The position numbers and the translations under genes were made by a program. The notes below the pieces were generated by a model. It made no database searches. It was not told the DNA's origin and worked only from the letters and a program-made list of their open reading frames with translations. Of a DNA stretch of 64,000 nucleotides, positions 1 to 63,240 are shown one piece after another. How positions within the stretch are numbered: the stretch's first letter is position 1; each line of letters begins with the position of its first letter. The DNA is from Corynebacterium humireducens NBRC 106098 = DSM 45392 (GTDB taxonomy: Bacteria > Actinomycetota > Actinomycetes > Mycobacteriales > Mycobacteriaceae): assembly GCF_000819445.1 (NCBI RefSeq), contig NZ_CP005286.1:2046001-2110000 (forward strand), in the 5' to 3' direction.

Positions 1-905
1 TCGAGCTCGGCGACGTCACCGTGGACGGTGACCCCCGCCTCCTGCAGCGCGGTGACGATGCGCAGCTTGTCGGCGTCGCTGAGGGCGGCGTCGATAAGCA
101 CCGTCTCGGTGGCGTTGCACACGGAGCAGCGGCGGGTCTTGCCGTTGAGCAGCATGGCGATGCCCTGCTCGAGGTCACCCTCGGCGTCGATGTAGAAGTG
201 GCAGTTGCCGGTGCCCGTCTCGATGGCCGGGACCGTGGCGTTGGTGACCACCGTCTCGATGAGGCGGGCGCCGCCACGCGGGATGACCACGTCGACGAGA
301 CCGCGGGCGGTGATCAGGTCCTGCACGGAGTCGTGGGTCTCGCAGGGCAGCAGCTGGACGGTCTCACGCGGCAGACCGAAGTCGGCGACGACGTCCTGCA
401 GGATCTCCACGAGCTTCGCGTTGGAGACCTTCGCGGTGCGCGAACCACGCAGCAGCGGCACGTTGCCGGACTTCAGCGCCAGACCGAAGGCATCGACGGT
501 GACGTTCGGGCGGGCCTCGTAGACCATGCCCATCACGCCGAGGGGGACACGCACCTGACGCATCTGGATGCCGTTGGGCATGACGCCGCCGGTGAGGACC
601 TCGCCCACCGGGTCCTTCAGGCCCGCGACCTGGCGCAGGCCACCGGCGATGCCCTCGATGCGGGCGGCGTCGAGGGAGAGGCGGTCGATGAGTGCCTCAG
701 TGAGGCCCTCGGCGCGGCCGGAGTCGATGTCCTGCTGGTTCGCGGCGATGATGTCCTCGGTCTTCGCGACGAGCGCGTCCGCGGCCGCCAGCAGGATCTC
801 GTTCTTCCGGGAGGTCGGCAGCTGCGCCAGAAGCGGGGCGACGGCCTTGGCCGCCCGGGCCTTGGTCAGTACTTCTTCACGTTCAATGGCGCGGGTGTCA
901 GTCAT
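1..905 (-). CDS. proA: Gamma-glutamyl phosphate reductase (partial, 3' end outside window)
   Basis: NADPH-dependent reduction of glutamyl-5-phosphate to glutamate-5-semialdehyde, second step of proline synthesis. The frame reads from the ATG at 905 to the window edge with about 301 codons and no stop. It starts MTDTRAIEREEVLTKAR and carries family-typical stretches such as VPLGVMGMVYEARPNVTVDA and, near codon 265, RRCSVCNATET, which contains the catalytic Cys. The C-terminal third lies beyond the left edge. A TAGACT -10 box ends 9 nt upstream of the ATG and no Shine-Dalgarno is visible, suggesting a leaderless or nearly leaderless mRNA. proB lies 2.3 kb away on the same strand but is separated by two other genes, so this is not a proBA operon. 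Confidence 0.95.
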   Translation of the reverse strand, partial: MTDTRAIEREEVLTKARAAKAVAPLLAQLPTSRKNEILLAAADALVAKTEDIIAANQQDIDSGRAEGLTEALIDRLSLDAARIEGIAGGLRQVAGLKDPVGEVLTGGVMPNGIQMRQVRVPLGVMGMVYEARPNVTVDAFGLALKSGNVPLLRGSRTAKVSNAKLVEILQDVVADFGLPRETVQLLPCETHDSVQDLITARGLVDVVIPRGGARLIETVVTNATVPAIETGTGNCHFYIDAEGDLEQGIAMLLNGKTRRCSVCNATETVLIDAALSDADKLRIVTALQEAGVTVHGDVAEL

Positions 906-913
906 GGGTCCCG

Positions 914-919
914 AGTCTA
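914..919 (-). promoter_or_regulatory. -10 box of proA
   Basis: TAGACT on the minus strand, 9 nt before the proA ATG. The same hexamer lies upstream of mdh and of both tRNA genes here. No clear -35 is seen. Confidence 0.45.
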
Positions 920-951
920 GCGAAAGCTGCTTTCCGACGTGCCCCCTTCCC

Positions 952-1872
952 CTAGTAGCCCGCCTCCAGGTCGACCTCGTTCGGCATGCGCTCCCCCGCC
1001 TCGAAGGCGGCGGCGTTGTCGACGACGAGACGTCCCGTCCGCTGCTGGATGACCGTGTACGTGTTCGCGGTGTGCGGGGTGATCATGCAGGTGTCGATGT
1101 CCCACAGCGGGTGGTCGTCGGGCAGGGGTTCGGGGTCGGTGACGTCGAGGGCCGCCCCGCCGATGACGCCGTCGCGCAGGGCCTCCACCAGGTCCTCCGT
1201 GTGCACGAGGGGGCCGCGTGCGACGTTGACGAGCACGGCGGTGGACTTCATCTGCGCGAACACGTCCCCGTTGATCATGTGCCGGGTCTCCGGGGTGAGG
1301 GGCGCGAGCACGACGACGACGTCGGCGACCGGCCACACCTCGTCCACCTCCGCGATGGCGCGGGACTCGTCCGCCCCCGCCACCTCCCGCCCGGACCGGG
1401 TGACGGCGATGATCCGCACGCCGAAGACCCGGAGCATCTCGATGAGCTTGACGGCGATGCGGCCCGCCCCGATGATCGCGACGGTCTTGCCGTCGAAGAG
1501 CCACTGCTTGCGCCGGTCCACCTCGCGGCGCACCGACCAGCTGCCCGCCAGGGTGATCATCTTGTGCTGGTGCATCTGGGCCAGCAGGATCGCGATCGTC
1601 GACTCGGCGACCGTGTCGTCGTAGAGGCCGGAGGCGCAGGCCCAGCGGACGCCGCCGGGACGGATGAGGCCGGCGTCGACGAGCGCGTCGATGCCCGCGA
1701 ACGTCGCCTGGACGTAGCGGATGTTCTCCGGCAGCGGGTCGGGAAACTTGCCCGGCCCCCCGTTGAACACGAGGAAGTCGGCGTCGTGGACGTCCTCGAC
1801 GTAGGTGTGGCCGGCGGCCTCGATCTCGGCGATGGCGTCCGGCCACTGCTGCGGCTGGAAGGCGAATCTCAT
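952..1872 (-). CDS. D-isomer-specific 2-hydroxyacid dehydrogenase
   Basis: A 306-residue NAD(P)-dependent oxidoreductase of the D-2-hydroxyacid dehydrogenase family, probably cytosolic. The Rossmann motif GAGRIAVKLIEMLRVFG lies near residues 140-156. The catalytic Arg is in NVARGPLV, the Glu in DVTDPEPLPDDHP and the His in MITPHTANTY, so the triad is complete. The ATG at 1872 is chosen because MRFAFQPQQWPDAI begins the family fold; the frame stays open far upstream but overlaps the opposite-strand gene. An AGGAGT Shine-Dalgarno lies just upstream. The substrate (glyoxylate, hydroxypyruvate, phosphoglycerate or other) cannot be told from sequence. Confidence 0.88.
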   Translation of the reverse strand: MRFAFQPQQWPDAIAEIEAAGHTYVEDVHDADFLVFNGGPGKFPDPLPENIRYVQATFAGIDALVDAGLIRPGGVRWACASGLYDDTVAESTIAILLAQMHQHKMITLAGSWSVRREVDRRKQWLFDGKTVAIIGAGRIAVKLIEMLRVFGVRIIAVTRSGREVAGADESRAIAEVDEVWPVADVVVVLAPLTPETRHMINGDVFAQMKSTAVLVNVARGPLVHTEDLVEALRDGVIGGAALDVTDPEPLPDDHPLWDIDTCMITPHTANTYTVIQQRTGRLVVDNAAAFEAGERMPNEVDLEAGY

Positions 1873-1959
1873 GGGTGACTCCTCCGGGGTGACCTGTGTC
1901 ACCACGTTACCGGAACTCCACCCCTGGGCGGCCACCCTGTCTTTCCCCGGTTTTTCCGG

Positions 1960-1965
1960 GATAAT
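1960..1965 (+). promoter_or_regulatory. -10 box of the 1972 gene, leaderless geometry
   Basis: GATAAT ends 7 nt before the ATG at 1972, so the predicted transcript start coincides with the start codon. Confidence 0.45.
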
Positions 1966-61509: not shown

Positions 61510-61554
61510 GTTATAGGGGTGACTGACCCGACGACTATCGAAGGTGACCTACTC

Positions 61555-62367
61555 GTGGAACTTCTCCTCCTCCTGCTGATCCTCGGCGGTGGCGCCGCCT
61601 ACTTCATGAACCGGAACAACAAGAACCGGGCGGCGGAGGTGGAGCAGACCCGCCTGGAGGACGCGCAGGCCGACGCCCGCCGCTGGATCGAACGCCTCGG
61701 CTCGCAGGTGCTCACCATCGCGGGCAACGACGCCGCCTCCACGCAGGCCATCGCCGACGCCTCGGAGCGCTACAACGCCGCAGCCTCCGCCATCTCCCAG
61801 GCGCAGACCGTCAAGCAGGCGGAGCTGGCGCGTGAGTCCGCGCTCGAGGGCCTGCACTACATGAACGCCGCCCGCGAGATCATGGGCATGACGCCCGGCC
61901 CGGAGCTGCCGCCCCTGGAGGGTCAGCGCAACGCCGGCAAGGTCACCGAGCGTCGCACCATCGAGCACGAGGGTCAGACCATCACCGCCTCCCCGGTGGC
62001 CACGGACCAGACGCCGAACTACTACCCGGGCGGCAACGTCGCGGGTCGTCCGGTCCCGGCCGGCTGGTACTCCCGCCCGTGGTGGGCCGACGCGATGGCC
62101 ACCGGCATGTGGACGGCGACGTCGATGATGATGTTCTCCATGATGTTCTCCGGCATGGCCGGTGTGGGCTACGGCGGCGACGCCTGGGCCTCCGGCTACG
62201 GCGAGGGCTACGAGGAGGGTCTGGCCGCCGGTGGCGAGGACATGGGCGATGCCGGCGACATGGGTGACACCGGTGACATGGGCGGCGGTGAGGACATGGG
62301 CGGCGGCTTCTTCGACGGTGGAGACGGCGGCGGCCTGTTCGACGGAGGCTTCGACTTCGACTTCTGA
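61555..62367 (+). CDS. Single-pass membrane protein with Gly/Asp/Met-rich tail (DUF1542-like)
   Basis: About 270 residues. An N-terminal anchor (VELLLLLLILGGGAAYFMNR) precedes an alpha-helical, coiled-coil-like region (about 25-110, rich in Ala/Glu/Gln: EVEQTRLEDAQADARRWIER), then a Pro-rich stretch and a hydrophobic Met-rich patch (TSMMMFSMMFSGMAGVGY). The C-terminal 70 residues are low complexity with repeats of GDMGD and GGG, ending DGGFDFDF. The start is uncertain: GTG 61555 has GAAGGTGA at good spacing; an in-frame GTG at 61519 lacks one. Function unknown. Confidence 0.75.
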   Translation: MELLLLLLILGGGAAYFMNRNNKNRAAEVEQTRLEDAQADARRWIERLGSQVLTIAGNDAASTQAIADASERYNAAASAISQAQTVKQAELARESALEGLHYMNAAREIMGMTPGPELPPLEGQRNAGKVTERRTIEHEGQTITASPVATDQTPNYYPGGNVAGRPVPAGWYSRPWWADAMATGMWTATSMMMFSMMFSGMAGVGYGGDAWASGYGEGYEEGLAAGGEDMGDAGDMGDTGDMGGGEDMGGGFFDGGDGGGLFDGGFDFDF

Positions 62368-62381
62368 CCGGGGTGCGCGCG

Positions 62382-62387
62382 TAGCAT
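62382..62387 (+). promoter_or_regulatory. -10 box of the aldo/keto reductase gene
   Basis: TAGCAT ends 8 nt before the ATG at 62395, giving leaderless geometry. Confidence 0.4.
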
Positions 62388-62394
62388 CGCGGGC

Positions 62395-63240
62395 ATGACC
62401 GTTCCCACCATCACTCTCAACGACAACACGTCGATCCCCCAGCTGGGGTTCGGCGTGTTCCAGATTCCGCCGGAGGACACCGAACGCCTCGTCAGTGAGG
62501 CCCTCGAGGCCGGCTACCGGCACATCGACACCGCCGCGATCTACCGCAACGAGGAGGGCGTCGGCCGGGCGATCGCCGCGTCGGGCATCCCGCGCGACGA
62601 GCTGTACGTGACCACGAAGCTGTGGAATCGGCGGCACGACGACCCGGAGGTCGCCCTCGCCGAGTCCCTCGAGCGCCTCGGCCTCGACAACGTCGACCTC
62701 TACCTCATCCACTGGCCGTGCCCGCGGCAGAACCGCTACGTCGAGGCGTGGCGCGGGCTCATCGGGCTGCGGGAGCAGGGGCTGACCACCTCGATCGGCG
62801 TGTCGAATTTCCTGCCCGAGCACCTCGACCGCCTGGAGATGCAGACCCCGGTCACCCCGGCGGTCAACCAGGTGGAGCTGCACCCGGCGTTCCAGCCGTG
62901 GAAGGACATCGACGCCGCCCGCGTCCACGGCATCCGCGTGCAGGCGTGGTCGCCGCTGGGCATGGGGAGGAACGGGCTTCTCGACGCCCCGGAGGTCGTC
63001 GACGTCGCCGCCGCCCACGGGGTGTCGCCCGCGCAGGCGATCATCCGCTGGCACCTGCAGAACGGGGTGATCCTCTTCCCGAAGTCCGCCCACCCGGAGC
63101 GCATCCGCGAGAACATCGACGTCTTCGGTTTCGAGCTCACCCCGGACGAGATGGCGGCGATCACATCACTGGACGAGGGTGAAGCGGGGCGCGTTGGGCC
63201 GCACCCGAACGAGTTTGAACCCGCGCCTGCCGGGAGTTGA
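62395..63240 (+). CDS. Aldo/keto reductase
   Basis: A 281-residue NADPH-dependent TIM-barrel reductase, probably of the 2,5-diketo-gluconate/methylglyoxal reductase group. Marks: [40 protein letters not shown] (catalytic Asp and Tyr), [12 protein letters not shown] (Lys), [10 protein letters not shown] (His), and cofactor motif [20 protein letters not shown]. Substrate unknown. The last 80 nt overlap the opposite-strand glycosyltransferase gene, so the two end tail to tail. Confidence 0.92.

Follow-up and report, generated by a model that had tools for sequence, protein, structure and literature searches.

To our knowledge, uptake sequences are known in just two families of Proteobacteria. 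Chi and KOPS are also asymmetric short words with hundreds of copies, and these are polar along the replichores. The DUS of the Neisseriaceae are found in genes and terminators, are atypical in mobile elements, and form dialects that follow phylogeny (as described in parts of PMC3630211 and PMC7371117); one-mismatch DUS outnumber perfect DUS in this family, and inverted pairs are frequent in DUS genomes (parts of PMC3630211). The USS of Haemophilus influenzae and the Pasteurellaceae are described as dispersed and terminator-associated (PMC5217627, in part), and a minor pilin has been predicted as their receptor (PMC12616744, in part). In Micrococcus luteus, an actinobacterium, the tad genes are required for transformation, which counts for an uptake tag in the genus considered here; the text of the paper reporting this does not use the term "uptake sequence" (PMC4322843).

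The window analysed here is a stretch of 64,000 nucleotides from the Corynebacterium humireducens chromosome. By analogy with the systems above, the refined motif that recurs in it, GCTTNYCGAYGNC, is probably a Corynebacterium self-recognition tag that would work like the DUS of Neisseriaceae or the USS of Pasteurellaceae. The 13-letter word is present in 17 exact copies in the window versus 0.00 expected (none in 100 dinucleotide shuffles), and its 11-nt core in 30 copies versus 0.20 expected from the shuffles. The chromosome of 2.68 Mb contains 478 exact copies, 245 forward and 233 reverse, while the reversed control yields 1. Codon bias alone is ruled out as the source of the motif: synonymous shuffling of 770 predicted genes, repeated 20 times, gave means of 1.4 sense and 8.4 antisense copies versus 96 and 33 observed. 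Such a strong genome-wide excess over composition and codon use is characteristic of DUS and USS and counts for an uptake tag; the near absence of one-mismatch copies at most motif positions counts against it. The flanks reflect just composition and codon periodicity, except for a C or T directly 5' in 33 of 35 intergenic copies, and with neither homologous flanks nor a larger conserved repeat around the copies, an IS or REP remnant was rejected. These results agree with an earlier note on this DNA, which had listed the 17 exact copies (all exist, with one start corrected from 32905 to 32904) and at least 12 further core sites (all 12 named are present; a core at 23974 on the reverse strand had been overlooked, making 30 cores instead of 29). 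The note had also argued against an IS remnant, and the excess stands up to the two checks it proposed, a whole-chromosome count and a codon-aware model.

Exact copies are intragenic at 2448..2460 (+), 19280..19292 (+), 49857..49869 (-), 55456..55468 (+), and 62976..62988 (+); one at 87..99 (-) lies in the gene 3-905 (-), and one at 6876..6888 (+) is antisense in the gene 6829-9768 (-). The copies at 51253..51265 (-), 54259..54271 (+), and 59611..59623 (+) are intergenic, as are those at 61497..61509 (-), with tRNA-Gly on one side and the gene at 61555 on the other, and at 28556..28568 (-), which is faced by an 11-nt core at 28524..28534 (+). Two further exact copies, 12137..12149 (-) and 12182..12194 (+), form a diverging pair. 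Cores occur as GCTTCTCGACGAC at 9123..9135 (+), GCTTCTCGACGTC at 16189..16201 (+), GCTTTTCGACGTC at 23972..23984 (-, the site absent from the earlier list), GCTTGTCGACGTC at 30615..30627 (+), GCTTATCGACGTC at 39566..39578 (-), 2 nt past the stop of a small predicted gene (39581-39787, -), and GCTTCTCGACGGC at 46934..46946 (-). The 11-nt core without the C at position 13 is found at 15823..15833 (-), 21190..21200 (-), 24826..24836 (+), 39801..39811 (-), and 61097..61107 (+). Variants with C at position 6 are located at 7473..7485 (-), 9198..9210 (-, facing the copy at 9123), 10362..10374 (+), 10495..10507 (-), 11966..11978 (+), 20294..20306 (-), 20350..20362 (+), and 44204..44216 (-). The type ISP restriction-modification gene in the window belongs to a kind that is often acquired; it carries a core at 34769..34781 (+) and an exact copy at 35876..35888 (+), which counts against an uptake tag.

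Genic and intergenic copies were counted in an 864-kb sample of the chromosome using our own gene calls. The intergenic share is 35 of 166 for exact copies, versus 12.9% intergenic DNA (p=0.003), 50 of 334 for the 11-nt core (p=0.25), and 59 of 367 for the relaxed motif (p=0.07). The motif had been described as clustered between genes; this holds weakly for the exact copies, 7 of 17 of which are intergenic in the window by these independent calls as by the original ones. Within genes, motif sites take precedence over the usual choice of codons and amino acids: CTT, a rare Leu codon, accounts for 2.1% overall but for 92 of 115 in the context of the motif, and the motif encodes the peptide GV[DE]K[LPHQR] in 23 of 23 cases, both of which count for an uptake tag.

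Some copies directly follow a stop codon, where they lie at the foot of a hairpin resembling a terminator. In the window, the exact copies at 26297..26309 (+), 3 nt past the stop of the gene 25529-26293, and at 32904..32916 (+), 15 nt past the stop of the gene 32121-32888, have their last bases paired in hairpins (60 nt folds of -52.1 and -44.7 kcal/mol, respectively). A sense copy starts at most 15 nt after the stop at 19 of 349 gene ends, versus 3 antisense, and in 13 of the 19, as single copies, the motif 3' end pairs in a hairpin; this association with terminators, shared with DUS and USS, counts for an uptake tag. The same gene-end and hairpin counts would suit an RNA-level 3'-end element that is part of intrinsic terminators and is also found in genes. 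However, the small intergenic share of the exact copies (just 35 of 166), the 33 antisense copies within genes, and the position of the motif 5' part, mostly outside strong hairpins, make such an element highly improbable.

Like DUS and USS, the motif occurs on both strands without replichore bias. Over 32% of the chromosome, with origin and terminus placed by GC skew (terminus at 1.52 Mb), exact copies number 80 versus 86 by orientation relative to the origin-terminus axis (p=0.70; 76:90 to 82:84 over four terminus positions) and relaxed copies 177 versus 190, and the balance of the exact copies counts for an uptake tag. A polar chromosome signal, whether KOPS, read by FtsK, or Chi, read by a RecBCD-like enzyme, would account for hundreds of copies per genome, and whole-contig forward and reverse counts are indeed unequal in a few genomes (e.g., 105:68 in G071 and 41:67 in G096). 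In this genome, however, the sampled copies have neither the origin-to-terminus orientation of KOPS nor the strand polarity of Chi; these counts contradict the Chi/KOPS-like role proposed earlier and leave a polar signal exceedingly improbable. Copy spacing is slightly over-even (CV 0.88 versus 0.99, with 3 of 500 simulations as low), which counts for an uptake tag; the mean gap between relaxed copies is approximately 2 kb, and density declines at most weakly away from the assumed origin (r=-0.25, n=41, p=0.11). Close pairs are not above chance (21 of all kinds versus 20.1 expected; 10 are convergent). Inverted pairs, a feature of DUS and USS, are thus not enriched, which counts against an uptake tag; the motif is therefore said to work like a DUS, not to be one.

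Within the sampled genomes of the order, the motif is restricted to the genus Corynebacterium, within which this genome itself is placed; the restriction counts for an uptake tag. It is abundant (at least 47 copies) in 103 of 141 Corynebacterium genomes, the enrichment in related species that the earlier note had asked about, and stays at background level in the other 38; all 149 genomes sampled from elsewhere in the order have 2-33 copies, about the level of the control pattern. Most species use CGACG, and one clade uses CGATG and mixed forms. De novo word counting recovered the CGATG dialect in four motif-poor genomes (G076, G006, G117, and G161) and no equally prominent word in five others (G010, G029, G107, G014, and G156). 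In G062 (75% GC), GC-rich words such as CCTCGNCGAGG (28 copies versus 1.8 expected) were prominent; these were taken for composition and coding repeats rather than for an equivalent of the motif. The dialects are clustered on trees and follow phylogeny, as those of DUS and USS do, which counts for an uptake tag. In the HolA tree all T and mixed genomes fall in a single clade; separate T origins suggested by the LepA tree were set aside given this clade, and how many times CGATG arose is uncertain.

The sites resist substitution and are conserved at orthologous places, which counts for an uptake tag: at 92-97% identity the site is kept in 126 of 141 comparisons versus 58% of control windows, and at 78-85% identity in 850 of 2038 versus 9%, comparisons that are not independent in either case. 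Copies spread across the entire sampled chromosome and kept at their places would also be expected if the motif were bound by a nucleoid or chromosome-organising protein, with a site evolving in dialects. Such a site is rather unlikely given the lack of replichore polarity, the at most weak fall from the origin, and the background counts in 38 of the 141 species of the genus; selection altering protein sequence would, in our judgement, also be unusual for it.

The mobile DNA sample comprises 209,913 bp from 2 phages and 3 plasmids, one plasmid in part. It contains 0 strict copies versus 26-31 expected at a density borrowed from the chromosomes of relatives; at the density of two among the sparser motif-bearing genomes, 7-8 copies are expected, with P(0) of 0.0003 and 0.0008. 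This lack of strict copies would suit an uptake tag. One plasmid of the sample has 2 relaxed copies, which counts against an uptake tag. A C. pollutisoli element has 1 relaxed copy in 20.0 kb, versus 7 in 21.6 kb of its flanks. The absence of the strict word from these 210 kb, together with the strong conservation of each site and the near lack of decayed one-mismatch copies, is consistent with a self/non-self mark read inside the cell, whereby a defence or DNA-processing enzyme would spare or direct word-bearing DNA, as a non-polar counterpart of Chi with species dialects. This is possible but unlikely: given the mean gap of relaxed copies, short molecules would carry no tag, a linked gene was not found, and we know of no system that reads so long an asymmetric word without polarity, nor of any member of such a category.

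Species dialects and the absence of the strict word from the sampled mobile DNA might likewise point to the recognition site of a widespread restriction-modification system or an orphan methylase. However, such length, asymmetry, a free inner base, and strong excess are not known to be typical of these targets; we judge this role, also named in the earlier note, a poor fit to a non-palindromic word with at least 11 fixed bases, its excess, and its dialects, and very unlikely. Among the four roles suggested there, the uptake-sequence role fits most of the measurements and the Chi/KOPS role falls away.

With regard to an uptake tag, the genome has comEA, comEC, dprA, and a tad pilus locus, which counts in its favor; comEA-comEC lies approximately 4-6 kb before the window. 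ComEC and DprA are each present in 141 of 141 genomes and TadA in 138 of 141, motif-less genomes included. Gene presence is therefore no predictor of the motif, and its failure to divide motif-rich from motif-poor genomes counts against an uptake tag. ComEC open frames of at least 640 aa are found in 27 of 38 motif-poor versus 11 of 103 motif-rich genomes (counts read by eye); this split follows phylogeny and proves no link to the motif. Dialect-matching columns of ComEA and ComEC were rejected as a signal of the reader, as HolA has more (17 at overlap <=0.05 versus 0-3 in the other genes listed); because HolA is richest in such columns and the T and mixed genomes form one clade, they represent a clade-level signal. 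No report of transformation in Corynebacterium came up in our literature searches, which counts against an uptake tag.

If the motif is an uptake tag, the word on free DNA would be bound by a candidate receptor in the cell envelope, either ComEA or a minor pilin of the Tad pilus such as TadE, and tagged DNA would be taken up through ComEC and recombined in preference to other DNA. Biased exchange could then keep the copies perfect and let further ones settle where they are tolerated, as at terminators. The reader would be the Tad-pilus/ComEA-ComEC system, in which TadE is a candidate pilin receptor. Were this correct, most Corynebacterium species, a group that includes commensals of the skin and nose as well as industrial strains and pathogens, would be, or recently have been, capable of natural transformation by DNA from their own kind; the Tad pilus system would be indicated as the reader, uptake of tagged versus untagged DNA would provide a direct assay, and a missing tag would help to flag foreign DNA.

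Chi and KOPS share with the Corynebacterium word its hundreds of asymmetric copies, but the word lacks their polarity in this genome. Its dispersed and terminator-associated copies resemble those of USS, which differ in sequence, phylum, and pilus type; at terminators, USS often occur as two facing copies, whereas here a single copy gives one arm. Micrococcus luteus is similarly an actinobacterium with tad genes, which transformation requires there and for which those of Corynebacterium would be candidates. In comparison to DUS, one-mismatch copies of the word are few, its inverted pairs are not enriched, and one inner base is free; its 478 exact copies are about one quarter of the 1900 reported for the N. 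meningitidis DUS, which counts against an uptake tag; DUS are associated with a type IV pilus with ComP, and Corynebacterium has Tad pilus genes instead. With DUS it shares the form of a short asymmetric word in many copies, found in genes and terminators, with dialects along the phylogeny.

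The earlier note had counted 17 exact copies of a 13-nt motif in the window, and this count was borne out: there are 17 matches to GCTTNTCGACGCC versus 0.00 in shuffled sequence, with 30 matches to the 11-nt core (0.20 in shuffles) and 32 to the relaxed form. The window spans C1:2046001-2110000 of a single contig (C1, 2,681,312 bp), and the abundance is genome-wide, with 245 forward and 233 reverse exact copies but only one copy of the reversed pattern. We sampled 864 kb (the window plus 40 further 20-kb stretches), in which we predicted 770 genes (87% coding). The 166 exact copies in this sample comprise 96 sense, 33 antisense, 35 intergenic, and 2 partial copies. 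The excess survives a codon-aware test, as synonymous shuffling (20 shuffles) yields on average 1.4 sense and 8.4 antisense copies within genes, versus the observed 96 and 33.

The anatomy of the motif was derived from single-base changes, counted against the 166 exact copies. Positions 2 and 7-11 are nearly invariant (each changed base yields 0 to 2 copies, versus 166), position 5 is free, position 12 can be any base, and position 6 accepts C besides T (62 copies). Copies with G at position 3 (25) all lie outside intergenic DNA, as do 22 of the 23 with C at position 4. The flanks show codon periodicity and C-richness, and a pyrimidine (C or T) precedes 33 of the 35 intergenic copies. The relaxed motif was defined as GCTTNYCGAYGNC, the Y at position 10 reflecting the dialects described below. 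Sense copies in genes are read in the frame xxG-CTT-NTC-GAC-GCC; the leucine codon CTT, 2.1% of leucine codons overall, reaches 92 of 115 in motif context. Codon choice is sacrificed to retain the motif and, it seems, amino-acid choice likewise: the peptide GV[DE]K[LPHQR] occurs 23 times, each time encoded by an antisense motif.

Retention of sites was assessed from pairwise alignments of named loci, comparisons that share sequences and are not independent. Motif copies were retained in 126 of 141 cases at 92-97% identity, versus 58% of control windows; the corresponding values, with the control share in parentheses, were 440 of 582 (30%) at 85-92%, 850 of 2038 (9%) at 78-85%, and 864 of 4123 (3%) at 70-78%.

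With the origin and terminus (1.52 Mb) located from GC skew, the motif shows no orientation bias relative to them (exact, 80:86; relaxed, 177:190; exact copies at alternative terminus positions, 76:90 to 82:84). Its density correlates weakly with origin distance (r=-0.25, p=0.11) and is higher at higher GC (r=0.45). The copies are spaced slightly more evenly than at random (CV 0.88 versus 0.99, with equally low values in 3 of 500 random placements), and close pairs of copies show no excess over chance. Among 59 relaxed intergenic copies, 27 are sense and no more than 60 nt past a stop codon, 10 are antisense close to a stop, and 5 and 2, respectively, are close to starts. Noncoding DNA of at least 40 nt follows 349 gene ends, and at 19 of these a sense copy starts within 15 nt past the stop; antisense copies do so three times among all gene ends. 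In 13 of the 19, at least three of the last five motif bases pair downstream, and folding energy over 60 nt averages -32.2 kcal/mol at the 19, versus -22.3 at the 330 other ends; therefore, a motif copy often forms the base of a terminator-like hairpin.

When GTDB species were scanned with a ComEC alignment, all of the best 80 of 334 confirmed loci, which we used here, were titled Corynebacterium. Exact counts range from 0 to 592 across 141 Corynebacterium genomes, sampled evenly from a larger set, and GCTTNYCGAYGCC occurs 2-32 times in 38 genomes and at least 47 times in 103. Among 50 named genomes, counts are high in C. pollutisoli (732), C. tuberculostearicum (426 and 428), C. silvaticum (318), and C. 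propinquum (209), and low in C. falsenii (0), C. dentalis (6), and C. spheniscorum (9). Outside the genus, 149 genomes of the order (55 other genera, 19 of these in the same family) contain 2-33 copies, of the same order as a control pattern and above it in some. On a LepA tree (74 rows), C. pollutisoli and two MAGs group with the source genome, and C. lemuris is nearby.

Most of the 80 named loci carry the CGACG (C) dialect; the CGATG (T) dialect is found in C. macginleyi, C. phoceense, sp. KPL1814 and relatives, and sp. J010B-136, and a mixed dialect in the group of C. tuberculostearicum and C. aurimucosum/minutissimum. De novo counting recovered GCTTNYCGATGCC in four sampled genomes (G076, G006, G117, and G161), and it also occurs at the places listed for G134. 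On the LepA tree, the dialect labels assigned from the 20-kb named loci are clustered (14 changes versus 31.3 in shuffles). The gene beside comEC at loci L133, L178, and relatives is presumably HolA (clamp-loader delta). In its tree, one side of a branch holds all T and mixed genomes, plus two motif-poor and one C-dialect genome; we therefore do not claim independent dialect origins. In the C. tuberculostearicum/macginleyi/phoceense clade, HolA has diverged, the changed stretch being approximately residues 101-109 (numbering of genome G000).

The source genome encodes comEA and comEC ~4-6 kb ahead of the window, dprA at C1:1679577, and tadA at C1:227700. The tad locus around tadA also includes genes for a small pilin, TadE, and a TadF-like protein; the gene names are partly presumed assignments and partly derived from HMM-like matching between genomes (PF00437 for TadA). 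ComEC, TadA, and DprA are present in 141, 138, and 141 of the 141 genomes. In 20 genomes compared, all nine motif-rich genomes and three motif-poor ones (G014, G156, and G107) have a TadE bearing AVDxAGAAARxHAIG or a close variant; it is missing in eight other motif-poor genomes, among which G062 is intermediate. The motif-poor loci L119-L130 and L231-L238 have a long ComEC (652-879 aa) in 9 of 12, and a different TadE type in most. Despite 223-470 motif copies, G001, G135, G137, and G161 gave split or short ComEC matches. The gene may have been lost recently, or the sequence may include errors or masked bases; N occurs in the G161 stretches. In C. pollutisoli VDS11, comEC lies in two parts ~38 kb apart on one contig (L215 10001-20618 and L144 1-11011). 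GC is lower at the ends of the intervening stretch, which carry a large serine recombinase beside the junction, type I restriction-modification genes, a DNA polymerase A, and a transposase. From its sequence, this comEC looks interrupted by an integrative element, similar to the prophages that sit in comK of Listeria.

We found no GCTTNYCGAYGCC in 209,913 bp of phage and plasmid DNA, which has lower GC and comprises phages BFK20 and phi673, plasmids pCE2 and pCE3, and half of pCFAEC45971a. The only relaxed copies in this set are two in pCFAEC45971a. With C. gallinarum and C. pacaense densities standing in for the hosts, 26-31 copies are expected; at the densities of two sparser motif-bearing genomes, 7-8 (probability of none, 0.0003 and 0.0008). 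Counting against depletion in mobile DNA, motif copies occur inside the type ISP restriction-modification gene of the window. This gene (1722-aa frame) is followed by one for an Mrr-type endonuclease (window 33444-39551, plus strand), and motif copies lie within or adjoin both.

Among the matches listed from open-licence PMC papers, none described the motif or natural transformation in Corynebacterium, which falls short of proving absence; passages of one (PMC5217627) report CRISPR-related pairs for the genus. Asymmetric, dispersed, non-polar, divided into dialects, found in terminators, and accompanied by a com/tad gene set, the motif resembles the DNA uptake sequence of Neisseriaceae and the uptake signal sequence of Pasteurellaceae, matching them in most tested respects and suggesting a putative role in uptake.
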